Assembly: GCF_902506145.1 (NCBI RefSeq)
Contig: NZ_LR733520.1
Coordinates: forward strand, 2,617,771-2,681,770
Source of the DNA: Burkholderia sp. 8Y
GTDB lineage: Bacteria > Pseudomonadota > Gammaproteobacteria > Burkholderiales > Burkholderiaceae
DNA: 64,000 nucleotides
Direction: 5' to 3'
In this document: positions 1,094 to 19,234 of the stretch, piece after piece
Position numbering within the stretch: position 1 is the stretch's first letter
How the letters are laid out: every line of letters starts with the position of its first letter
Made by a program: the position numbers and the translations under genes
Notes under the pieces: model-generated
What the model was told of the DNA's origin: nothing
What the model saw: the letters and a program-made list of their open reading frames with translations, nothing else
Databases searched by the model: none

Positions 1094-1393
1094 TTAGTTT
1101 TGTTTGAGTTCAAGGCGTTGGATGGCAAGTACGCCTGCTTCCATTTTCGCGCGCGCCGAACTGTTCGCAGAGTGTACGGAAATCTTCGGCGGCCTGAAGC
1201 CTCGAAGCGCCACCGCCTCTTCAATCCATAGAATGACATCATAGCCCGTGCCGCAGTCGTCGTCCCCGAGGTCGTGGTCAAGGCTAATCTCTTCGACTGT
1301 GCCTAACTCCAAGAGTCGGATTGCTTCGTGCGGCCAGTGAACACGCGTCCAACCGTCCGGCGTGACGCGCTCGTCGTCGAGGAAGACCTTCAT
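1094..1393 (-). CDS. Cyclic-phosphate processing receiver (cREC) domain protein
   Basis: A 99-residue single-domain protein. It starts MKVFLDDER, has the central acidic stretch SLDHDLGDDD, and ends with the segment ISVHSANSSAR. This pattern matches the small receiver-like family described as cREC (cyclic-phosphate processing receiver), which is usually found in conflict or nucleotide-signalling islands. Its ATG overlaps the TGA of the upstream zinc-ribbon gene by 4 nt, so the two are translationally coupled. The next gene starts 13 nt after its stop. The biochemical role is not established. The family call is from pattern memory and fairly confident. Confidence 0.75.
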   Translation of the reverse strand: MKVFLDDERVTPDGWTRVHWPHEAIRLLELGTVEEISLDHDLGDDDCGTGYDVILWIEEAVALRGFRPPKISVHSANSSARAKMEAGVLAIQRLELKQN

Positions 1394-2977: not shown

Positions 2978-4801
2978 TTAGGTGGTCTCAACCATCTGCG
3001 CTGCGGCAGCGAGCGTACGCGAGCTTCTGGCTTCCTGTTGCGTGGGCCAGAGTGCCAACGATTCAGCCGCCCGCTTGCGCCCGGCGTCAGTGATTCGGAA
3101 AGACGGGTCCTTTGGATGAGCATCAAGCAATCCAGCCTGTGCGAGCAATTGCATCGCGCAGTACAGCCGGTCGGTCAAAACTGGGGGCTCTGTCAGCTTC
3201 GTCTCGTTTTCGAGGTCGCGCTCAAGCCCCTCGTCGCCCGGAACAATCCGATAGCGGTCCCGAAGGTTACCGGGCTCCGCCTCCGAGCGCTCACGGACGA
3301 CCGAGAAGTGTAGATTGACGACGAAGTCCCGAATTACCATCGCAACGAGTTCAGTCACCGGCTTGTCGGCATAACGTCGAGCAAGCGTGGCCAAGTGCGC
3401 AGGTGACAGACGGTCTCGCGTGTCGTCTCGCCGGTAGAACCCTCCCTCCGGCCAGTTTTCGGCTTCGGCCGCACAATATGTGAGGGCAACAGCGACGAGC
3501 AGGACGGCCTTCTTGGCCTTCTCGAAAGTCTTGAACTTGGACGCTTTTCGAAGCTCATCGAACAGCACGTGCAGGCTCTTCATCGGAACAACTTGCGAAG
3601 CGTAGCCGGTTCCCGCCATGCCGGCCTCATATAAGGTATCGGCGTCGCCCTGAGCCGTCTGCCAGGCATCAACCCATGTTCCCACGGTCAGCGTCATTCC
3701 CGGTTCGTTAGCTCCGAGATTCGCGGCGAGCGCGGCTACGTCGCCGATGCGACGCGGGTCCTGCTTGGTCATTAAGTCGTGAATTTGAAGCTCAGTCAGG
3801 CGCAGCAACGTCTCAAGAACAAGTTTGATGTACTGGCGAACCTGCAAACTAGCCCAGAGTCCTCGAGCGTCAGGCAAGTTGGTCAAGTCAATTTGGCTGC
3901 CGCCGGGAGCGAAGCCGCTGCCCATCGCATGCCTGACAATGTCGACCGGCACGAAACCATCCTCCGCCGCGAAGCGTTCCTCTGCCGCGACAAGCGCACG
4001 CAGGGCGAGCGTCAGCCCCTTGTGACGCATGTCCCAGAGCTTATCGATAGGGAACTGACCTGGCGACGGCAGGTACTGCGAGAGAAAAGCAGCCTGTTCC
4101 GCCGGATGTGCCGAGTCGAGCCTCAGTAGAGGGTAAAAGCTCGAGACGTTCGCGGGCAGGATTTGCACTTGGCGCGCGTCCGCGAGCCAGTCGATTTGGG
4201 CCTGAACCGCGGCAATGTCATCGCTTGTTGCAGCCATTTCGGCGAGATGACGTGCAAATCCGTCGGCTAGGTCCTTTCCTGCCTCGCTGAGCATGAAGGC
4301 ACCCGGGATGGCTTTGGTGTCGAGTTGGAGGAACTGAAGGCCATTCACAAGGCTCGGGCGATATTGAGGTGCGGTAAGCAGATACGCACCTCTGGCGGTA
4401 TTCACCTGGAGGCCGTCTTTCTTCCGCGTTCTCTGCTCGTCGCTGAGGATTTCGCTCAATCGCAGGGTCGCAAGCTCATTCTCTTTTGGCCAATGCCGGT
4501 CCGTGCCCGGCAAACCGCCGCGGTGCTCACGATTGCACCACACGAGCAACAGGTCCATTTTCTCGAGAGCGGCGGTACAGAGTTCCCGCGCTTCTTCAGG
4601 GTTCTTCGCGTCTCGCCGCGCAAGCTCCCTCGCTTCACGCAGGACCCAGCAAAGTGCCGAGTAGACGCGAATAGAGTTCGCGACGTTGTTGATGCCCGGC
4701 AACAAGGTGCGGTAGAGCGACATGTTCGCGCTCTGCAATCCCAAGGGGTCAATGCTCTGCGCGTGCTTGGCTCGAGTCGTAAAAACAGGTGCTTTATGCA
4801 T
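2978..4801 (-). CDS. Unknown 607-residue partner of the PLD-type protein
   Basis: A soluble protein of 607 residues I cannot assign. It starts one base after the stop of the PLD-type gene, with GGAG 8 nt before the ATG, so the two are co-translated. A second possible start is at codon 27 (MSLYRTLL). Near residue 170 LSEAGKDLADGF, and near the C terminus LLAQAGLLDAHP...ITDAGRKRA, look like winged-helix elements, hinting at DNA binding. No nuclease, helicase or membrane motif was found. The tight coupling says it works with the PLD protein, perhaps as its specificity or sensor subunit; that is inference. Confidence 0.75.
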   Translation of the reverse strand: MHKAPVFTTRAKHAQSIDPLGLQSANMSLYRTLLPGINNVANSIRVYSALCWVLREARELARRDAKNPEEARELCTAALEKMDLLLVWCNREHRGGLPGTDRHWPKENELATLRLSEILSDEQRTRKKDGLQVNTARGAYLLTAPQYRPSLVNGLQFLQLDTKAIPGAFMLSEAGKDLADGFARHLAEMAATSDDIAAVQAQIDWLADARQVQILPANVSSFYPLLRLDSAHPAEQAAFLSQYLPSPGQFPIDKLWDMRHKGLTLALRALVAAEERFAAEDGFVPVDIVRHAMGSGFAPGGSQIDLTNLPDARGLWASLQVRQYIKLVLETLLRLTELQIHDLMTKQDPRRIGDVAALAANLGANEPGMTLTVGTWVDAWQTAQGDADTLYEAGMAGTGYASQVVPMKSLHVLFDELRKASKFKTFEKAKKAVLLVAVALTYCAAEAENWPEGGFYRRDDTRDRLSPAHLATLARRYADKPVTELVAMVIRDFVVNLHFSVVRERSEAEPGNLRDRYRIVPGDEGLERDLENETKLTEPPVLTDRLYCAMQLLAQAGLLDAHPKDPSFRITDAGRKRAAESLALWPTQQEARSSRTLAAAAQMVETT

Positions 4802-4802
4802 T

Positions 4803-7403
4803 TCAACGACTCCAATCGGCGTAAAGACTCTTCAGCACGTTGTAGCGGGTCAATTCGGCCGCGCGCAAACCGGCAAACACCGGTTTTTCGCAATAGCCGT
4901 GAATGGTGACGCGGCGGGTTCGCAGCGCACTTACCTCGCCGATGTTGCGAACCACCGTGCGACAGTTTGGACATGACGCTACGTTCGTGAGCGGAATTTC
5001 CTGCGGAATAAGTCCGAACACGGTCTCGTTCTTAGCCAGTTTGCGGTCTTTGAGCTTTTGCAGGCACTCGAACACTTTTTGGTATCGCGGATTGACGCCG
5101 CTTGGGGTGGCATCGCCGAACAGGGAACCTAGCATCAACTCGAGTTCTTCTCGAAGCGTCAGGCTGCCTACAATTCGTGCAACGTGTGTGAATACACGAC
5201 TGGTCGCACCGGCGTCCCGAACCAGTTCGAACGCATCAAGGTCCAAGCCCAGGGCGACAGCCTCCTCCCATTCGCCAAGCGGGACCTCGCGTTGCGCGAA
5301 GTCCTCAATCTGTTCCTTGATGGCGCCAAGCGCGAGTGTTGGTGACGCATCATAGGCGCAACAAGCGAACGTGCAGAGCACTGGCAGCAATCGCTCACGG
5401 TTGTCGACGTCATACGCGTAAGCGCTGTATTGAGCCAGCCAGGCACCCAATCCGTATGGGTCAGTGGGCGTAAACGCCTGCATTGTCGCGTTCGCCGTCG
5501 GCGCTTGCACACCGCCCGCTGTCATGACGACAATCGCTTCAGCCAGCGCGTCGGTCGCAGCCATCGCGACCGCAGCCGAAACCATCGGCCCGGTCGCGTC
5601 TTTCGCGAGTACCACGGGAAGCTTTTCCAGCATTGCGTCGATGGCATTTTGCTCTTTTGCTACGCCGTTTTCGACGTCGTCCTCAACGGGCGCTTTGTTG
5701 CTGCCGTACTCCTGTTCGGGAGTAATGATGTCGAGTTGCCCGAGCGCGCGACCAACGGGACCGAAGCGAGTGCGTCGAATGTCGTCGTTGAGGCTTCGAA
5801 AGGCGGCCGCCATACTTTCCTCGGCAAGCTGGGCGGACACATTCAACGCCGGCTCGTCGCCCTTGCGCCAGTCCTGGTACGCGCGAAGCTCCTTGAGCTT
5901 GCGCTGCTCTTCGCGCTGATTGCCCCCATTCGAGGTCGGCGCAGGGGTGCGTTTAGCGTCGGCCTTGCCGTCTGGCGTGGGCTCGGGCTTGCGATGCAAA
6001 ACTCCTGTCATCCAGTTCAGCACAGGACGTAGGTCCCGGTCGTTGCCTGTGCCGCTGCGGATTCGCGCGGCGGCGCGCGCAAGCTCCTTCTCCCACGGTC
6101 TTGCCGCAAGTTCGCTCTCGACGTTGAGCCAGCCGATAACCGTGAATAGCTCCGACGTGAGCTTGAGTCGACGAGCACCTTCGCCGGTGCTTCGGCTCAC
6201 TCTCGTTGTGGTGAACGAACCGTCAGACTCCAGTTCCACGTCATCGAGGGTATGTTCGAGGTCGGAGTCGCGCCAGATTTCCAGGCTTACGGTGTGCGCG
6301 TTCGGACGCGGCGACACCTTGCCGGTGATGACGCCGTCCGACTGCCATTGGGCATCGAGTGCCGGTGCTTTGCGTCCAAGCTCAGGAGACTTGAATTTGC
6401 ACGCTTCGTACTCGACGCCGGCCAATTCTTCTTCGGTCAGCGTCTTCCACTTGAACGCCGGTGCATTCAGCTTCCGGGCTAGGGAAATCTCAACGTTTTC
6501 CAGCCCAAAGAGGCTCTGATTGGTCGCGTTGACTGAGCCAGTCATGACCATGCATCCGGTTGGCGAGCGGACTTCAAATACTTTCGCGTGCGCGAACCGG
6601 TTCTCGACCTTCTCTTCGGGCACCACGTACCGTGTGCCGCGGGGTAACGCGTTCACCTTCTCCAAGGGAATGACGTAGCCCTTTTTGCCTTGACGCACGC
6701 CAAGCGAAAGCTCCGACGTTCCGCACTGGCGCGCGAGCTCGCACGCCGCGTTCGCAGCCGGGTCAAAATACGGGCCGAACACAGTCAAGCCAACTGCGTC
6801 CGGTAGATGCTGACGAACCAGACTTGCGAATTGCTGGCCCGCGTTACCTACCAGAGTGTGCACAAGCCATGCGGACGTATTCTCACGCGCCGCCGGCGGC
6901 GCGCTGGCGGCAACCGCAGAAGCGCGTTCCGCGTAGTACCGCAGGTTGGCAGCGGCTTTGGCAGACAGGCCCGGGGTCAGGACGAACTGGCTCGCAAATT
7001 CCGCAAAGGCCTCGAACACCAAAGGGTGCGCCTGCGCGGTCACCGAATCCAGCACTTCGAGATTCGCGTTTTGCCCGCTCGTCGTCAAATTGCCGCTGCC
7101 TACGACCAGAACGTCGTCGCCCGAGCCACGTTCGAGGTAGGCAATTTTAGGGTGGAAGAATCCGCCTGAGTCCTGGTGGACGGGGATGACTCGATAGGCG
7201 TTGCCGGCGTAGAGGCTGGTCGACTCGTCGGTGGACTTGCAGGCTTCACGCGAGTCGACCAGCAAGTCGACCTTTCCACAGCCTGACACCTTGAGCAATG
7301 GAAGGCAAAACGACTCGAACCAGTTGACGCTAAGCGTGAACGTGGTGAACAACGCGCGGCGCGGGCGGACGGCGTCGATGATTGCTTGAAGTCTGGTCTG
7401 CAT
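4803..7403 (-). CDS. Phospholipase D-superfamily protein, probable nuclease
   Basis: An 866-residue protein with two PLD (HKD-type) motifs in the N-terminal third. The first has HPK at residues 84-86 with GSGNLTTSG from 102. The second has HAK near residue 271 with TGSVNATNQ about 15 residues later. Paired motifs form one active site in this superfamily, which includes nucleases such as BfiI-type restriction enzymes and Nuc. The remaining 550 residues are unknown. A CPNC pair lies close to the C terminus. ATG 7403 follows a GGGGG stretch. It is the first gene of a two-gene unit. No signal peptide is visible, so it is cytoplasmic and more likely acts on nucleic acid than on lipid. Confidence 0.8.
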   Translation of the reverse strand: MQTRLQAIIDAVRPRRALFTTFTLSVNWFESFCLPLLKVSGCGKVDLLVDSREACKSTDESTSLYAGNAYRVIPVHQDSGGFFHPKIAYLERGSGDDVLVVGSGNLTTSGQNANLEVLDSVTAQAHPLVFEAFAEFASQFVLTPGLSAKAAANLRYYAERASAVAASAPPAARENTSAWLVHTLVGNAGQQFASLVRQHLPDAVGLTVFGPYFDPAANAACELARQCGTSELSLGVRQGKKGYVIPLEKVNALPRGTRYVVPEEKVENRFAHAKVFEVRSPTGCMVMTGSVNATNQSLFGLENVEISLARKLNAPAFKWKTLTEEELAGVEYEACKFKSPELGRKAPALDAQWQSDGVITGKVSPRPNAHTVSLEIWRDSDLEHTLDDVELESDGSFTTTRVSRSTGEGARRLKLTSELFTVIGWLNVESELAARPWEKELARAAARIRSGTGNDRDLRPVLNWMTGVLHRKPEPTPDGKADAKRTPAPTSNGGNQREEQRKLKELRAYQDWRKGDEPALNVSAQLAEESMAAAFRSLNDDIRRTRFGPVGRALGQLDIITPEQEYGSNKAPVEDDVENGVAKEQNAIDAMLEKLPVVLAKDATGPMVSAAVAMAATDALAEAIVVMTAGGVQAPTANATMQAFTPTDPYGLGAWLAQYSAYAYDVDNRERLLPVLCTFACCAYDASPTLALGAIKEQIEDFAQREVPLGEWEEAVALGLDLDAFELVRDAGATSRVFTHVARIVGSLTLREELELMLGSLFGDATPSGVNPRYQKVFECLQKLKDRKLAKNETVFGLIPQEIPLTNVASCPNCRTVVRNIGEVSALRTRRVTIHGYCEKPVFAGLRAAELTRYNVLKSLYADWSR

Positions 7404-9134: not shown

Positions 9135-9584
9135 TCATACTGCAACTCCCAACTCGGACTCGTCGAATGCTTGCAACGCGCGACCCGGTTGAGCACATGC
9201 TGCGCAGTAGACGGCTAGCTCGCGCTCGTCGACGACTCGCGCGGAACAAAGCCATGGCTGCGAGGCGTCTTCGAATTGCGTCATGTTGACAGAGACGTGA
9301 GGCAACGCGCGGTCGACTGGTTGCAGACAAAGCGAGCAAGGGACGGTTTTGCCCCGCGATGGGTACGGGGATGTGAGCGTCGATGTGATTGCCGCTTCGG
9401 CGTACTCGCTACACTCAGAGCCGCAGAAGTCTGTTACCAGTTCGTCGTCTGAGACCATAACGACCGTTCCGGACGGCGTGTCCGTGAGTGTCTGGCTGCG
9501 CTTGCACAAGCTGAAGTATCCTTTATGCAGCTCGTGCTCACAGACGCCGCAATATCGACCTTCGTAAGAATTTGCCATGTTCAT
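9135..9584 (-). CDS. Zinc-ribbon-like hypothetical protein, copy 2
   Basis: A 149-residue paralogue of the protein at 1390-1827. It keeps all the cysteine pairs (CGVC, CGSEC, CSLC, CAAC), the central TSPYP...KTVPCSLCL block and the ending FDESELGVAV. By eye about two thirds of positions agree. AAGGAG precedes the start by 4 nt; a second ATG two codons in is also possible. Unlike copy 1 it is not followed by cREC or GES/HPS genes. Function is unknown. The paired cysteines predict zinc binding. Confidence 0.7.
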   Translation of the reverse strand: MNMANSYEGRYCGVCEHELHKGYFSLCKRSQTLTDTPSGTVVMVSDDELVTDFCGSECSEYAEAAITSTLTSPYPSRGKTVPCSLCLQPVDRALPHVSVNMTQFEDASQPWLCSARVVDERELAVYCAACAQPGRALQAFDESELGVAV

Positions 9585-10550: not shown

Positions 10551-11126
10551 ATGACTGACGAGGAACACCTGGCCGCCCTACGAACGTACTGGAAACGAAA
10601 TCAGGCGTTTCCCGCCATGGCGAAGCTTTGCGACGTGGTCGGCCTTAACAGCACCAGCAGCGTCTTTGCGCTCATCAAACGACTTGCCGACGCAGGCTAT
10701 GTGGAGCGAGTTGAAGGTCGGGTGGCCCCGACTAGACGCTTTTTTGGTCGCCCAGTCATTGGCGCTGTGCGCGCAGGCTTGCCACAACCGGAAGGACAGG
10801 AGCCGCCCGAGTTGCTGACAATCGACGACTATCTCGTTGATGACCCCAACAGGACTGTCCTCTGTCGTGTTCGGGGCCAGTCGATGCGGGACGTCGGCCT
10901 CTTGGACGGTGACCTCGTGGTCGTCGAAAAGAATCGGCCGACTAAGCCGGGCGACATTGTGGTGGCAGTGGTTGATGGCGAGATGACGGTCAAGACTCTT
11001 TGCCTCGGCAAGGACGGGGCGTTCTATCTTGAGCCCGCAAATCCGGAATTCCAGCCGATTCGACCACAGGGTTCGCTCGAGATAGTCGGCGTCGTGGTCG
11101 GTTCTGTTCGCCGCTATGGACGGTGA
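10551..11126 (+). CDS. LexA-like S24-family autoproteolytic transcriptional repressor
   Basis: A 191-residue protein with LexA layout. Residues 1-65 form a winged helix with LexA-like wording (LCDVVGLNSTSSVFALIKRL...GYVERVEG). The C-terminal S24 peptidase domain holds the catalytic serine in GQSMRDVGLLDGD and the lysine in VDGEMTVKTL. Family knowledge says such proteins cleave themselves when RecA is activated, releasing target promoters. GGAG precedes the ATG by 7 nt. It is not the housekeeping LexA by context: it sits in an accessory island and probably controls island genes, including the divergent acidic-protein gene and perhaps the 164-aa gene downstream. Confidence 0.85.
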   Translation: MTDEEHLAALRTYWKRNQAFPAMAKLCDVVGLNSTSSVFALIKRLADAGYVERVEGRVAPTRRFFGRPVIGAVRAGLPQPEGQEPPELLTIDDYLVDDPNRTVLCRVRGQSMRDVGLLDGDLVVVEKNRPTKPGDIVVAVVDGEMTVKTLCLGKDGAFYLEPANPEFQPIRPQGSLEIVGVVVGSVRRYGR

Positions 11127-12628: not shown

Positions 12629-15600
12629 TCAATCCGACATGTCGTCCCACACGCGTTGCAGTCTTTCCCGATTTGCAGCGCGCAGCTTTGACAGACCAAG
12701 CCTTTTAGTCATTGCAACCATGCCAGCCTCACGATTCGACTCGTGTGACTTGATTTCCTTTGCGAGTGCGCTAAGTTCCAAGCTTGAAACTTCATCGAGA
12801 ACTCGGGCGCCGCCTTTGGGTGGCCGACGGAAGGACCATTCTTTCCCCGCGCTCCCTTTCTCCCGGAAGAAGAGTCCAACATCCTCATGGTCGCAGTCGA
12901 AGTGTCTTTTCGCCACCTCCACCACTCGGTCCAGAATGCGGCCTCCGGTGCGAGACCATCCATGCGCCCGAGCGATTCGGCGCGCGAGGACTTCGTCGCG
13001 GATTGGCGCTTCAATTGCCACCACATGGGCAAGCATTGACGCTAACTGCGGGTCGTAATCCTTGTCGAAGAAGCGTTCTGGTGAACATACATGCTCCGTC
13101 AAGTCGAAATCAGCCTCAATGAAGATTGCTGCCGAAGGTTCCGATTCAGTCAGCGACGTCGCCCGAGCGTATCTTGCGGAACCCGGAGCTCGTATCGTGT
13201 CCAACGCTTCGTCGCCATCTTCTTCATCAGCGTTGTCAACTTCCGTTGAGACCGCCCGCTCGAGTTCGTCTGGGCCAGATGCTCTCGCCGCCGCAATTAC
13301 CTCTTCCGCGATGGCCGCAGCCTCCGTCTCGTTAAGGGCGCCTTGCTCGCGCTGACCAGCCAAGAGTGCCCGGAGTTGCGCATCGACTTTCTCGAGCGTG
13401 CCAGGCATGTCAATCCACCAATCGGTCGACCAGATGCGGACAATCTCCCATCCAAGACCGCGCAGGACTTGCTCTCGCAACTTATCGCGGTCGCGCGCGG
13501 TCGCGGACCGGTGGTAAGTCGCTCCATCACACTCAATGCCGGCGACATAGCGGCCCGGAGCATCCGGGTCAACGACGCCTAAATCGATACGGAAAGCGGA
13601 CACGCCGACTTGGGGATGGACCGTCCAGCCGCGTTCGGCGAGTGCAACGCAAACTGCTTTCTCGAAGGGGCTGTCGAAATCGCCAATGCTGCCGGCGACC
13701 GCTTCACCGAGTGCCCTCGCACCTCGCTCAGCAAACTCGAGGAAGTGCTTGAGGTCGCGGACGCCGAGCGCTTGGGTTCGAGACAAGTCCATCTTCTCGG
13801 GCCTGAAGCTTCCGAAGACGCGCAACTCTTGACGGGCCCGCGTAATGGCGACGTTCAGACGCCGCTCACCACCCTGCTGATTCATCGGGCCAAAGTTCAT
13901 TGGCATCGTGCCATCGACGCCCGGGCCGTAGGTAATAGAAAAGTACATGACGTCGCGCTCATCACCCTGCACGCTTTCGAGGTTCTTCACAAACACCGGT
14001 TCGAGCGCGGTATCGGCGAAGTGCTGCTCGATGGAAGGGTCCTTTCGGCGCTCAGCGTCCAATAGGTCCTCAATGAGTCGCTGCTGCTCAGCGTTGAATG
14101 TCACGACGCCAACGGTTTGCCCGCTTTCAGCGAATCCCGGAGACTTAAGACGACCGACGAGGTCTGCGACGAGGGCTTTTGCCTCAGGCTTGTTTGTACG
14201 GGAAGCCCCGCGCTCGTACTGTCCTCCGGTGGCCAGATGGAAACTCACAGCGCGGTCATCCGTGACCGGGCTCGGGAAGGTCACAAGGTCGCCACCGTAG
14301 TAGCGATAATTGGAGAAGGCGATAAGACTTTCGTGACGGCTGCGATAGTGCCATGACAGCTTCATCGTCGGCAGGTTCGCGCCGATACACTCTTCTAAGA
14401 TACTTTCGAGTTCGGTTTCGATGTCGGTGTCGTCAACGTCAGATTCCGCGCGGTCGAAAAAGCTTGTCGGTGGAAGCTGTTTCGGGTCGCCGACCATAAT
14501 CACTTGGCGGCCCCGCGCCATGGCGCCAATCGCGTCCCATACGGGAATTTGAGAGGCTTCGTCGAAGACCACCACATCGAAGTCGGACGTTTCTGCCGGC
14601 AAGTACTGAGCAATCGACAACGGGCTCATCAGCAAGCAGGGCGTGAGGCGCAGAATCGCGCTCGATGCCTTCGTCATCAATTCACGAAGTGGCAGGTGGC
14701 GCGTCTTCTTCTGCATCTCATAGCGCAGAAGCCCCCACTCGGACCCGTGCGAAACCCTCGCTGGCGACGGGAGTCCGGCCGAGAGCTGCGCTCTGACCCA
14801 AGCCTGGGTCAGAGCGATGAACTGCTCGTCCAATTCACGGAAATCCTGGATGCGCTTTTCGTGCTCCGCGGAGACGAAGGTCCGCAGAACTTCGTCGGCG
14901 TCAACGACGGCGTTAAGCCACCAGCGACAATAGTCTGTCTCAAAGACTTCCTTGACGCGGCCTCGCGCAACGATGCCCTGCTCAACGCCTGCAACCAACG
15001 GTGCCAGCCCGAGCGAGAGTGCTTGCTGGCGAACCTTGCGCCAAGCACACCACGCGTTCAAGCGGTTCGAGTTCTTCGGTACGTTCCCGGCACGTTCAGC
15101 GAGTTCTGCAGGCAACAGTGCCGCGAAGCTCGTATGCTCCGTTAGAGCGAGACCGCTCGCTGATGCGAACTTTGTGACTGCTTCCTCGAGCGACTTGAGC
15201 GCATCCGCATAGACCCTGCCAGTGCCAGCAACGATGCCTGATGGTTCGAGCAACACATTGCTGTCCCCAAGCAACAGACCCACCGGTCCCCTTACGGCCG
15301 AAAGGAGCTCGGGGGTTGCGGCGAGACTCGCGAGAGCCACAGCCAACGACTCAAAGAATTCCAGCGCAGGTTCGACGCCCTCAGTTTTTGTTCTAAGGCC
15401 ATTCCAGAGACCAGACGTCTTCGTCGACAGGTCGGAGTGCTCTTCGAGGCGCGCGCGAAGCGACACGAGCTCGCGCATCTTCTTGATATCAGCGGCGGCA
15501 GTTGCTCCGGCACGTCCAGATGCAATAGTGGAGAAGCCGTCGTCGAGCCAATGGCTTTCAGCGCGCGCGGCCGCTAACGCACCTTGGAACGTCAGGTAGG

Positions 15601-18600
15601 CCTTCGCCACGCCGACTTCGGTCTGGAAGCCGCTCCAGATTCCGTCTGTCTCGGCCGTGAGCGGTGAGAGACGCTGGACAACCTGCTCAACCTGACGCAG
15701 TTCACGCATGCGCTCGAGGTCATCACGAGCCGCATCACCGCACTGGCCTCGGCTGACCGGGTCGAGACTGATATCCTCCCACGCCTCGCGTGCATGAACC
15801 CGAAGCAATGCGGCCTGAAACGCGAGGAGCGCGCGAACGACATCGATGTCCGTCTTCAAGCCGGCCCACGCATTAGACGTCGGCAACGACAGGTCGTCGA
15901 GAGCCTTGATTTGCTCGTTAAACGCGTCGATTCTCGCCAAGCGCTCTATGTCGCCTTCGATGTCGGGCTCGCTACCGCCAGTGGCAAGTTCCTTGAGCTT
16001 CTTGACAAGCGAGCGCTTGCGCATCATGCTCATCGGCCAGCTCGAATCCTTCAGTTCGCGGAGGTCAGATTGCAACTCGGCTACTGTTTTGCTCGGAATG
16101 CTCTCGTTGTAAGGCAGAGATAGTTGACCCGCGGTGTCAAGACGGCTGCGCAGCAACTCAATGCCCGTAGCCAGACGGCTTCTCAACGTCTCATTCCATG
16201 GCCGGGACAACTTGGCACTCAGTTCCGCGTCACGCTCCACCTGAGCGATGCCAAGTCGCAGGTCGTCGAGCGTCTGGTTGCTTTTGGGAGTCGACAGACC
16301 TGCGAGCAATTCACGATATCGCTCCAGCATCGGGACTGCTTGCCGGAGCGCGTCAGCTATCGACTTTGCGTCCGGACGCAACGCGAAACGCCAATCGTAG
16401 CCAGACGCCAAGGGCAGCGTTGCTGCGAGCATGCGCATTCCCTCACGCACTCGAGCGTCAAGTAGAAGCGCCGGAAGTCCGATTGCCGCGAGAAGGTCAT
16501 CAGCGGCCTTCTCAAACGTGGCGACAACCTGTGGTACGGCTTGGGCAGCATCCAGCAAGGCTGACTGCCATAGAGGGGACCATTCCGTTTGAGCAATATG
16601 AGCCAGCGGCGTCGAATTAAGCTGCCCCTCGCCGAACGCCTTTGCGTTGATGTCGAGCAATTCCGCCGTTTCTCGCAGGGAGCGCATGCCATCGAGGTTA
16701 TGCGCCTTTGAGGACGGCCACGACAATCGCAGTTCCGGCAGGTCATGGCCGCCGACCACTCGGCCGATGGCTTCATAGACACTCAGGCCGTTTTCATGGC
16801 GTTGGTGGAGCCGCTCGACATAGCCGTTCAGTTGCGAACGAATCGCCTCCAGTCGCTCGGCCTCGGCATGCCACTGTTCGGGGGCGAGCGCAGACGTTGC
16901 GTCCCACGAGGTACGGAGCTGCTCGAGCACCTCCGTCTTACGAGCTTTGCTCGAATGAAGTTCGAGACAGAAGCTTCCAAGACCCACATCAGCGAGACGC
17001 CGATAGACGACATCGAGCGCAGCCATTTTCTCGGAAACGAATAGCACCCGCTTCTTCTCAGCAAGGAACTGCGCAATGAGGTTGGAAATGGTCTGGCTCT
17101 TGCCGGTTCCAGGAGGTCCGATAAGGACAAAATCCTTGCCCTTGCTGCCGGCAACCACTGCGGACAACTGAGACGAATCGGCAGGCAGCGGACAGAAGGT
17201 TTCCTTGACCGGCAGCTCTCGGTCCAGCCGCCGTACGTCGGGGAATTCGACGCTCGTCTGGTACGAATCGCGCGGAGTATCAATAAGATGACGAACGACG
17301 GAATTCTGCTTGAGTTGCTCGGTGCGTTCGGTAAGGTCCCGCCACATCAGATACTTCGCGAACGAGAATGACGCGAGAACGACGTCTTCTACGACTTCCC
17401 AACCCTTGATGTCTTTGATTGCGTTCGAGACAGTCTTCCAGATGCCGGCTACGTCGAGTCCAGAGTCATCTTTCGGCAACTCTGTGTCACGAATACCCAA
17501 CTCCAGTTCAAAATCTTGGCGCAGCATCTCGATGAGCGTCGGATTGAATCGTGGCTCATCGTCGTGCAGCCTGAGACTGAACCCGGAACGAGCGCTACGC
17601 CGCTCCAACGAGACGGGCACCAATATAAGAGGCGCGCGATATTTCTTGTCGTCTTTGTCGTCCCGGGTCCACGAGAGGAAACCTACGGCGAGGTAGAGTG
17701 TGTTTGACCCGCCCTCTTGAAGCGTCGTCCGAGAACTGCGGAATAGCTCGAGTAAGCGGTCATCCATCTCCTCTTGCGGAAGACCGATAAACACTTCCTT
17801 CCGCTTGAGTGCATCGAGCGCGTGTCGACGCCGAATGTTCTCGCGCTCGCGAGCTTCATGAACCGCCTGACTTCGCGGGTCCGCGCCGTCCATCAGGTCC
17901 GGACGGGTGAGAAGCTTGAGCGCTTGGCCCTCCGCGAGAATGTCTTCCAGCAGCCCCGGCTCGGGGGCATCCAGTTTGACCGATTTCTTGCCGGCTTTAA
18001 AGCTTAGCAGGTTGTTCCGAAGGGACAGGTCGAGCAGCTTCCGCTGCCAGCGAGTAAGCCGGTCTTCTGGACGCTCGAGGTCGCCGTCGACCTCGGTGTC
18101 CCCGAAAGTCGTAGGAAGGTCGGGAGCCTCTTCCCAGGTGGGCGTGCGATTCTCGCTCGAATCTTCGTCCGAAGCACCGCGCACGACCACCTGCTCACTT
18201 GCCAGCGGCTTAATGCGCTGCAGACGCGCGCGATGGATGTCCACCGCTAGTTCGAACTTGCCTTCGGAACCTTCCGCGATGCGTTCCTCGCCCTTTTCCG
18301 CCGCGAAACTAAACTTTGGGAGGGGCCGCTGCGCAAGATACGTGGACTCGAATAAGACCATCTCCTTAAGCTTCACGCGCTTCCTAAGCGCGGTGATGTC
18401 GTCAACGACCGTCGTGGAGAATTCCTCCGGTTTCAGCCAGACGCCCGGGAACGCATGCCCTTCCTGGAAAACGACGAGCGGATTAAGGCCAGCTTGCTCG
18501 AGCGCAGCACAAGCGAAAAGAGCCAGGTCGAGACAGGTTCCAAGCTTCGATTCTGCGATATGGCCGGGAGCGCGCACTTTCTGGCCGTTGTATTCAAAGC

Positions 18601-19234
18601 TCGCCGGCGGCACCGCGTAATCGATGCCCATGGCACCAATGGCGTTCCAGATGGCCGAAGCTAGTTCCCAGGCGCGCTTAGGTCCATCCTGATAGCCATT
18701 GATGGCCCCGGGCTTCCCGGCGCCGCGTAGAACTTCCGCCGCTTGTTTGAGGACACGCTCGATGGCCGGTTCGTTCGGCTGAACGAATGCTGCCACCATA
18801 TCGGGAAGCGAAGATAGACCGCTCCATTGGTTTCGAGGGAGTAGTTCAACAATCGCCTCGGCCAAAGCCAATTCCGCTGGCTCGTCATTGCCATCGATAA
18901 GGCGGAACGTGACAACCGCCTTCTCGGACTCCGTCAGTCGTCCCAGTAGCGGCCCGTCCAGCCCAAGGTCGATGTCCGAGAGCCGAACCGTCTGACCCGA
19001 CGCCAACTGGTCGATATGCCAGGTCTTGGGTTTCAAGAACGGCGGCTCTGAGCCGACCGTCAGTCGCAACGACTTGTAGTCGCTACTCGTCCCGTTGACG
19101 AGCGACAACTCGCGAATCACCGGGACGGCGTTCTGAAAGTCGGCGAGATTGACCTTGGTGGCAAGCGTTGTCTTGATTTCGACGCAGCTCGGCTCTTCCG
19201 GCTGAACTGCCGGCTCGATTGCTACTGTATCCAT
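12629..19234 (-). CDS. Giant transglutaminase-like / DUF4011 / SF1 helicase / endonuclease / DUF3320 protein
   Basis: A 2201-residue multidomain protein. In order: an unknown N-terminal domain; a transglutaminase-like region with Cys near 234 (GTCLDLALF), His near 258 (EGHAFPGVW) and Asp near 277; DUF4011 near 391-411 (KLLDLSLRNNLLSF); a superfamily-1 helicase of the COG1112 type with Walker A GPPGTGKS near 704, Walker B VVFDEASQ near 1558 and motif VI NVAITRARQ near 1800; a PD-(D/E)XK/Vsr-like nuclease near 1855-1941 (FRIDLGV, AGIECDGATYH, GWEIVRIWS); and DUF3320 near 2090. Such proteins occur in defence islands. It probably unwinds and cuts foreign nucleic acid; the transglutaminase-like part may be structural or a protease. 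The GIY-YIG-like gene follows. Confidence 0.88.
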   Translation of the reverse strand: MDTVAIEPAVQPEEPSCVEIKTTLATKVNLADFQNAVPVIRELSLVNGTSSDYKSLRLTVGSEPPFLKPKTWHIDQLASGQTVRLSDIDLGLDGPLLGRLTESEKAVVTFRLIDGNDEPAELALAEAIVELLPRNQWSGLSSLPDMVAAFVQPNEPAIERVLKQAAEVLRGAGKPGAINGYQDGPKRAWELASAIWNAIGAMGIDYAVPPASFEYNGQKVRAPGHIAESKLGTCLDLALFACAALEQAGLNPLVVFQEGHAFPGVWLKPEEFSTTVVDDITALRKRVKLKEMVLFESTYLAQRPLPKFSFAAEKGEERIAEGSEGKFELAVDIHRARLQRIKPLASEQVVVRGASDEDSSENRTPTWEEAPDLPTTFGDTEVDGDLERPEDRLTRWQRKLLDLSLRNNLLSFKAGKKSVKLDAPEPGLLEDILAEGQALKLLTRPDLMDGADPRSQAVHEARERENIRRRHALDALKRKEVFIGLPQEEMDDRLLELFRSSRTTLQEGGSNTLYLAVGFLSWTRDDKDDKKYRAPLILVPVSLERRSARSGFSLRLHDDEPRFNPTLIEMLRQDFELELGIRDTELPKDDSGLDVAGIWKTVSNAIKDIKGWEVVEDVVLASFSFAKYLMWRDLTERTEQLKQNSVVRHLIDTPRDSYQTSVEFPDVRRLDRELPVKETFCPLPADSSQLSAVVAGSKGKDFVLIGPPGTGKSQTISNLIAQFLAEKKRVLFVSEKMAALDVVYRRLADVGLGSFCLELHSSKARKTEVLEQLRTSWDATSALAPEQWHAEAERLEAIRSQLNGYVERLHQRHENGLSVYEAIGRVVGGHDLPELRLSWPSSKAHNLDGMRSLRETAELLDINAKAFGEGQLNSTPLAHIAQTEWSPLWQSALLDAAQAVPQVVATFEKAADDLLAAIGLPALLLDARVREGMRMLAATLPLASGYDWRFALRPDAKSIADALRQAVPMLERYRELLAGLSTPKSNQTLDDLRLGIAQVERDAELSAKLSRPWNETLRSRLATGIELLRSRLDTAGQLSLPYNESIPSKTVAELQSDLRELKDSSWPMSMMRKRSLVKKLKELATGGSEPDIEGDIERLARIDAFNEQIKALDDLSLPTSNAWAGLKTDIDVVRALLAFQAALLRVHAREAWEDISLDPVSRGQCGDAARDDLERMRELRQVEQVVQRLSPLTAETDGIWSGFQTEVGVAKAYLTFQGALAAARAESHWLDDGFSTIASGRAGATAAADIKKMRELVSLRARLEEHSDLSTKTSGLWNGLRTKTEGVEPALEFFESLAVALASLAATPELLSAVRGPVGLLLGDSNVLLEPSGIVAGTGRVYADALKSLEEAVTKFASASGLALTEHTSFAALLPAELAERAGNVPKNSNRLNAWCAWRKVRQQALSLGLAPLVAGVEQGIVARGRVKEVFETDYCRWWLNAVVDADEVLRTFVSAEHEKRIQDFRELDEQFIALTQAWVRAQLSAGLPSPARVSHGSEWGLLRYEMQKKTRHLPLRELMTKASSAILRLTPCLLMSPLSIAQYLPAETSDFDVVVFDEASQIPVWDAIGAMARGRQVIMVGDPKQLPPTSFFDRAESDVDDTDIETELESILEECIGANLPTMKLSWHYRSRHESLIAFSNYRYYGGDLVTFPSPVTDDRAVSFHLATGGQYERGASRTNKPEAKALVADLVGRLKSPGFAESGQTVGVVTFNAEQQRLIEDLLDAERRKDPSIEQHFADTALEPVFVKNLESVQGDERDVMYFSITYGPGVDGTMPMNFGPMNQQGGERRLNVAITRARQELRVFGSFRPEKMDLSRTQALGVRDLKHFLEFAERGARALGEAVAGSIGDFDSPFEKAVCVALAERGWTVHPQVGVSAFRIDLGVVDPDAPGRYVAGIECDGATYHRSATARDRDKLREQVLRGLGWEIVRIWSTDWWIDMPGTLEKVDAQLRALLAGQREQGALNETEAAAIAEEVIAAARASGPDELERAVSTEVDNADEEDGDEALDTIRAPGSARYARATSLTESEPSAAIFIEADFDLTEHVCSPERFFDKDYDPQLASMLAHVVAIEAPIRDEVLARRIARAHGWSRTGGRILDRVVEVAKRHFDCDHEDVGLFFREKGSAGKEWSFRRPPKGGARVLDEVSSLELSALAKEIKSHESNREAGMVAMTKRLGLSKLRAANRERLQRVWDDMSD

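Follow-up and report, generated by a model that had tools for sequence, protein, structure and literature searches.

The locus described here raises the question of whether two adjoining genes, one of them encoding a PLD-type protein, act together in defence and, if so, whether they form a system of a new kind. Both lie on the minus strand of the window, the whole stretch of 64,000 nucleotides from Burkholderia sp. 8Y that was analysed, where the initial annotation had placed ORFs of 866 and 607 amino acids with a single base between the stop of the first and the start of the second. Both ORFs and their spacing are as it described, with gene B first and gene A second, and translational coupling of B and A may be inferred from the junction TGA-A-ATG. 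The pair comprises the following features:

4803–7403, minus strand: gene B, an 866-residue ZacB-like protein of the PLD (HKD) superfamily (ORF; Pfam PLDc_2; PADLOC ZacB and PDC-M27B)
7056–7157, minus strand: first PLD motif of B, residues 83–116, F-H84-P-K86...S-x-N105-x-T...N-x-E116 (alignment)
6489–6590, minus strand: second PLD motif of B, residues 272–305, H272-A-K274...GS-x-N292...N-x-E305 (alignment, string search)
4881–4973, minus strand: CxxC...C zinc-finger-like segment near the C-terminus of B, residues 811–841 (comparison of nine B proteins)
4799–4805, minus strand: junction TGA-A-ATG, one base from the B stop to the A start (sequence)
2978–4801, minus strand: gene A, a 607-residue partner, distantly ZacA/DUF6361-like (ORF; hhalign of the A-family profile against ZacA; census, tree)
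4646–4756, minus strand: N-terminal signature of A, residues 16–52, DPLGLQ...LY..LLPGINN...R.Y....W, in common with ZacA (alignments, hhalign)
3068–3214, minus strand: C-terminal winged-helix-like segment of A, residues 530–578 (sub-threshold Mrr_N; weak matches in other members)

A and B are more than chance ORFs, since they are 71% and 77% identical, respectively, to those of the nearest relative (locus L007) and the nucleotide differences between the two loci are in excess at third codon positions (142/105/471 at positions 1/2/3 of B and 133/106/316 of A). The corresponding dN/dS values are approximately 0.08 for B and 0.12 for A, with dS near saturation.

The N-terminal third of B was said to contain two PLD motifs and this holds, as both HxK motifs are intact and located within the first 305 residues. 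The first reads FHPK...GSGN (H84, K86, N105 and E116) and the second HAK...GSVN (H272, K274, N292 and E305), and Pfam PLDc_2 (PF13091) matches window B in two stretches at an E-value of 8.9e-9. Window B thus has what marks the PLD (HKD) superfamily, namely two HxK motifs, each followed by an Asn and a Glu. Conservation of these positions is nearly complete across the 28 aligned B proteins: His-84, Lys-86, Asn-105 and Glu-116 are each kept in 27, His-272, Asn-292 and Glu-305 in all 28 and Lys-274 in 27, while the string H-A/S-K...GS-x-N of the second motif occurs in 27, the exception being L050, whose short B (573 amino acids) also lacks the first motif. The Asp that belongs to a classical HKD motif displays no conservation among the B proteins; BfiI and Tdp1 are likewise devoid of it. 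The CxxC...C segment is present in five of the six proteins from loci in which B precedes A (the window, L007, L020, L021 and L010, but not L050) and in none of the three compared from loci with the opposite order (L008, L022 and L024).

No lipid-enzyme PLD family matched window B at E<=1 in the Pfam and NCBIfam scans, so that a housekeeping phospholipase or cardiolipin synthase, the identity which the initial annotation had named as fatal to its reading, is rejected. Among 27 B proteins scanned against Pfam at E<=0.1, PLDc_2 was matched by 26, and the NgoFVII and Tdp1 families weakly by three each. Together with the lack of a lipid family these matches agree with the nuclease-type label originally given to B, which is probably a nuclease-type PLD protein that cuts nucleic acid, the substrate of PLD proteins not being fixed by sequence. 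PLD nucleases cut through a covalent phosphohistidine and are metal-free. B resembles the BfiI/NgoFVII-type nucleases and Tdp1 in its HxK...N motifs without a conserved Asp and in its weak RE_NgoFVII and Tyr-DNA_phospho matches. In contrast to both, it is much larger, has a regular partner and is accompanied by no constant methyltransferase. A PDB sequence search with B returned no match at E<=1.

The partner is less readily placed. Window A reaches the cut-off of no Pfam family, PADLOC and NCBIfam return nothing for it at E<=1, and its one match in a PDB sequence search is at chance level (E 0.56). Residues 530–578 give a sub-threshold Mrr_N match (Pfam, E 0.031), and among 33 aligned proteins (A-type, ZacA and PDC-M27A) at E<=0.1 in Pfam three match Mrr_N and one the winged-helix family HTH_45 (8.6e-6), which makes a C-terminal winged helix in A plausible; the second of the two winged-helix segments originally proposed is unconfirmed. 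Asp-18, Trp-52 and Gly-99 are invariant in the same 33 proteins, which include three ZacA and one PDC-M27A. DUF6361 is matched at E<=0.1 by five of the 33, three of them presumably the ZacA proteins.

Homologues of the two genes occur together with great regularity. Loci with both ORFs, 28 of which were tabulated, were found in Pseudomonadota and Bacteroidota, on chromosomes, plasmids and phage-like contigs, with Paraburkholderia, Polaromonas, Undibacterium, Rhizobium, Sphingopyxis, Sphingobium, Roseovarius, Myroides and Prevotella among the named hosts; the 28 are not independent, since they include near relatives (L058/L059; L052/L071/L076). L009, a B-first locus in which B is split into two ORFs, is excluded from this number, while L050 is counted. 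All 28 pairs are encoded on one strand; two have a gap of one base and the other 26 overlap, by 4 to 86 bases, some of these lengths reflecting starts that were set by rule at the first start codon. A precedes B in 22 and B precedes A in six (the window, L007, L020, L021, L010 and L050).

Searches seeded with A found it in two of 369 genomes of the class (three places, all with B adjoining) and in seven of 398 of the phylum (nine places, of which the window's own genome accounts for two), where B adjoins at eight. The ninth (L053) holds a divergent A without B, matched at E 9e-7 and, as a whole ORF, at 9e-19. This lone A-type protein of 524 amino acids (L053:8526–10100) lies about 400 bases from an ORF that reads as integrase-like. 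In plasmids, with same-genus repeat records left out of the tally, all seven full-length A places examined (L056–L062) are accompanied by B, as are L011 and L012; the short matches without B are a 115-residue fragment (L063) and a place with no matching ORF (L064). Six stretches of viral contigs carry the signature pattern, of which four have a complete A, each with B, and one (L075) has no A. Single-protein and alignment searches of the viral contigs found no relatives, and of two further DNA patterns one gave 16 stretches, none with a family member, and the other gave no stretch. In the sixth (L073:1–1100), also phage-like, A is interrupted after about 90 residues by what reads as a transposase-like frame; this locus, L009 and L063 represent broken copies of the pair. 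A second, divergent pair in A–B order is present in the window's own genome (L008:6625–10676), with a 172-residue ORF seven bases upstream.

Searches seeded with B were consistent with this distribution. B was found in eight of 299 relatives (nine places, A standing beside it at seven), and in a named genome collection the sole locus was that of Paraburkholderia phenoliruptrix. Genomes G020 and G054 hold a PLD protein of 754 amino acids with no A-profile match and a 1484-residue gene behind it. In the class, B matched nine of 369 genomes, strongly in the two with A and weakly in seven. One of the weak matches (L108, genome G486) belongs to a ZacA-ZacB-ZacC-like locus. Another (L107, genome G607) is a PLD protein located between an ORF with a DPLGF stretch (by reading), which does not match the A profile at E<=1, and a helicase-like ORF. 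The other five are ORFs of 304–411 amino acids. Seldom finding the homologues together was the other outcome that the initial annotation had held against itself; the 28 pairs speak otherwise, the lone divergent A of L053 being the one departure.

A and B also share their history. The distance matrices of the two proteins over 28 loci give a Mantel r of 0.947, a value inflated by related loci, and none of 2000 permutations was as high (largest 0.29). These correlated distances are read as a mark of co-inheritance and not of contact between A and B. In the trees of both A (29 proteins, with L009) and B (28 proteins), a branch supported at 100/100 separates the B-first proteins from the others, and a single switch of gene order is the apparent history of this sample; tree depth and rooting are unsure, since long branches meet at L010. 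Comparison of the window with the neighbourhoods of L007, L020, L021 and L050 at E<=1e-6 revealed only A and B in common. A count of ORFs of at least 100 amino acids lying no more than 8 kb from each of the 28 pairs gives A and B at all 28, HsdR at five, HsdM-type methylases at five, UvrD-type helicases at three and every other kind at two or fewer; no third gene, a methyltransferase included, is constant over this distance. The census, the trees and the neighbourhood comparison together rule out chance neighbours.

Is the pair, then, of a kind not described before, as had initially been claimed? Azaca reportedly goes back to Millman et al. 2022. It comprises three genes, including the helicase ZacC. 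One passage of PMC12278908 lists "Azaca (ZacC)" among helicase-bearing systems, which equates Zac with Azaca; a table in PMC10952713 gives a PLD-like domain for both Mokosh and Azaca, and part of PMC10482375 counts Azaca in 2023 among systems of unknown mechanism. Profile searches, which the initial annotation had suggested as a check, place B with PLDc_2 and also with two PADLOC models, ZacB (E 2.3e-12, residues 61–359) and PDC-M27B (6.5e-11), and give A the sub-threshold Mrr_N match. In hhalign the 28 B proteins align with four ZacB proteins at a probability of 98.9. The kinship of A is more distant: among eight A proteins scanned with PADLOC ZacA, those of L009, L011, L012 and L023 match weakly (1.5e-5 to 0.016) and those of the window, L007, L008 and L010 do not. 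The profile of 29 A proteins nevertheless aligns with four ZacA at a probability of 91% and a score of 57.8 over 85 N-terminal columns, the best of 104 controls scoring 28.9, while single ZacA proteins score 33–53 against the A profile and the PDC-M27A of L025 scores 36.6. Window A itself has no family above the Pfam cut-off, and the A proteins as a group appear distantly related to ZacA, with a homology confined to the N-terminus.

The likeness to Azaca consists of a double-motif PLD protein in B as in ZacB, an N-terminal signature in A as in ZacA (DUF6361) and adjoining genes. In contrast, A has 504–627 amino acids and the four ZacA 388–397, B has 776–871 (L050 573) and the four ZacB 595–622, one clade of the pair has the order B–A, and the A of the window has no ZacA match. 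The third gene differs most: profiles of three ZacC and two PDC-M27C helicases found no relative at 27 of the 28 pair loci, the window included, in flanks of up to 12.5 kb a side that were often shorter and were limited by contig ends in L052, L071, L072, L074 and L076. ZacA itself was found in three of 249 genomes of the phylum, in none of 14 control genomes and not in the genome of the window. At each of the three, the locus combines the ZacA ORF with a PLD ORF, weakly matched by the B profile (E 2e-7 to 1e-6), and a helicase-like ORF that reads as having a Walker-type motif and matches PDC-M27C.

A similar relation links the pair to the PADLOC candidate PDC-M27, represented by L025 (genome G020; M27A 4e-14, M27B 5e-23, M27C 3e-81). 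The PLD protein of PDC-M27 shares both motifs with B (hhalign probability 99.5), and its partner has a DPLGL stretch. In contrast, L025 has a 1484-residue helicase as third gene, which the two-gene pair does not; the kinship of A with M27A is weak (hhalign probability 28–32%, score 36.4–36.6, best control 28.9); and the window pair matches M27B only, so that M27A, M27B and M27C are not found there together. Other PLD proteins with a defence setting are further removed. DrmC of DISARM, PbeA and DpdK have a PLD domain and their models are matched weakly by B proteins, but the matches are short (about 20–62 residues) and the partners are unlike those of B. Mokosh has a PLD-like domain as B does, yet B matched no Mokosh model in PADLOC.

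Kinship with ZacA and ZacB rules out a wholly new kind of system. The claim that no described system holds such a pair therefore does not stand; the pair varies a theme already described, with ZacA and ZacB of Azaca and PDC-M27 as its relatives. With regard to the two-gene form itself, titles and abstract openings in the open-licence literature, searched mostly by name, gave no pointer to it, DUF6361 is absent from that literature as searched, and PMC12839542 and PMC9252829 do not contain "zac", nor do the passages of them consulted point to the pair. With moderate confidence, the pair is interpreted as a mobile two-gene module against phages or plasmids, a variant of the Azaca kind without a dedicated helicase. 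The same homologies, of B to ZacB and of A to ZacA, would be expected if the pair were a partial or decayed Azaca whose helicase was lost or is supplied in trans, rather than a system of its own. A locus of a Sphingobium plasmid (L060:4985–13973) encodes on one strand an SNF2 helicase, an uncharacterised 587-residue ORF, A and B. Its helicase, two genes upstream of the pair, matches the ZacC and PDC-M27C profiles and lends this alternative some weight, although it also clusters with the gene in the ZorD position of L057; UvrD-type helicases near three of the 28 pairs point the same way. These lie at L011:13558–16431, L049:4345–6663 and L052:3958–6906, and in L052 a topoisomerase zinc ribbon occurs as well. 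A decayed Azaca is nonetheless judged improbable, as the other 27 loci have no such helicase in the flanks examined, the two-gene form is widespread and divergent, the window's genome lacks ZacA, and A and B differ in length from ZacA and ZacB as given above.

The surroundings of the pairs are rich in matches to defence models. At E<=1e-20, 141 PADLOC models were matched among 106 neighbour proteins of at least 200 amino acids at 14 chromosomal loci, a figure that counts models rather than proteins and is inflated by redundant type I R-M models. The same count was four among 104 control proteins from stretches of the same genomes, these being 104 of the 187 ORFs in 14 stretches (the 83 omitted are some of L096–L101 and all of L102–L106). 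The control matches are two ShosA models and one PsyrA model (two proteins each) and mad2 (one protein). In a Myroides plasmid (L012) the pair is located inside an operon between hsdS and hsdR, in Polaromonas pPNAP01 (L057) it follows zorA and genes that read as zorB–D, and in L048 it lies 98 bases behind HsdM-S-R. Type I R-M genes also stand beside it in a Roseovarius plasmid (L056), a Prevotella plasmid (L062) and L024. Next to the pair in L010, but encoded on the other strand, a further PLD protein of 586 amino acids overlaps an AAA-domain gene (L010:14010–17251, minus strand). The proposed survey of neighbourhoods has thus returned both regular pairing and defence-model matches around it, in keeping with the accessory, defence-type setting first suggested, and pairs are carried by plasmids and phage-like contigs.

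Mobile contexts of this kind might also suit a pair that serves plasmids and prophages in maintenance, transfer or DNA repair and has no part in defence. The Sphingopyxis pairs (L058 and L059) lie within a tra region and have an AbiEii-type gene as neighbour, in L021 a TniQ-like gene is found 4.7 kb away, and other pairs occur in phage-like contigs. Such contexts are equally usual for defence cargo, however, and the rare and patchy occurrence of A in the class and phylum genomes (the window's own included), the position among defence genes and the kinship with Azaca make a non-defence function quite unlikely.

In the window the pair belongs to an accessory stretch adjoining a core operon, as judged from G+C content and the preceding DNA. 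G+C per kb is 55–61% over the window's first 20 kb, whereas beyond 21 kb values are mostly 61–70%, with three kb at 58–59%. The 20 kb before the window (L027, overlapping it by 130 bases) contain tRNA-Tyr, -Gly, -Thr and -Trp and ORFs that read, by their N-termini alone, like NusG, ribosomal proteins, RpoB and EF-G; they have 56–65% G+C, so that the left border is not marked by composition. At 12629–19234 (minus strand) the same stretch encodes a known defence protein, of 2201 amino acids and DUF4011/SF1 helicase/MTES_1575 nuclease composition, which matches the anti-phage ProA model of NCBIfam (2305 bits, cut-off 1500) and PADLOC PDC-S37. ProA is ruled out as a third gene of the system, being 5.2 kb away and of a type that does not recur with the pair. 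Paralogous Cys-rich ORFs of 147 and 149 amino acids (1390–1833 and 9135–9584, both minus strand) flank the pair and share a 287-nucleotide direct repeat that is 75% identical; this is possibly a duplication framing an insertion. A 99-residue cREC receiver-domain protein (1094–1393, minus strand; PF20274, 1.6e-27) overlaps an uncharacterised 311-residue ORF, and a 191-residue LexA/UmuD-like S24 peptidase with a LexA-type DNA-binding N-terminus is encoded at 10551–11126 on the plus strand.

How the two-gene module might act is suggested by its composition. The regular pairing of a PLD protein with a winged-helix-like one, with no constant methyltransferase or ATPase, would fit a complex in which A recognises or restrains and B cuts. 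A and B would associate; A, through its N-terminal signature and winged-helix-like end, would bind or sense invading DNA or a DNA state induced by infection, and would hold B in check in the uninfected cell; upon recognition, B would cut the invader's nucleic acid. With no constant methyltransferase, the cell's own DNA would be spared through recognition or inhibition and not through modification. Direct restriction of invading nucleic acid is the first choice among modes of action, and is considered moderately probable. The second is an abortive system, in which A would be a sensor and inhibitor and B, once freed, would destroy host DNA or RNA so that the infected cell dies, the trigger being for example an attack on a co-resident restriction system. 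Guard genes of this sort inside R-M operons are PrrC and RloC. The Myroides plasmid pair recalls such genes, type I R-M lies near five of the 28 pairs, and no methyltransferase that could protect the host is constant; yet 23 of the 28 loci are outside HsdR/HsdM clusters (dissimilar R-M genes would be missed), and abortive action is considered rather unlikely.

More tentatively, and with something short of an even chance, A and B may be the minimal core of a wide PLD-based defence superfamily that takes in Azaca, PDC-M27 and the two-gene form and in which the helicase is optional. On that view the two-gene form would restrict by itself, as a PLD system that needs no ATPase and has a new recognition protein, and would exist as two subtypes, one in A–B order and one in B–A order mostly with a zinc finger. 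The pair would also add a module without a name in PADLOC 2.0.0, NCBIfam 20.0 and Pfam, where window A is above no cut-off. A natural form with two of the three Azaca genes would uncouple recognition and cutting from the motor, so that what ZacA and ZacB each do could be tested directly.
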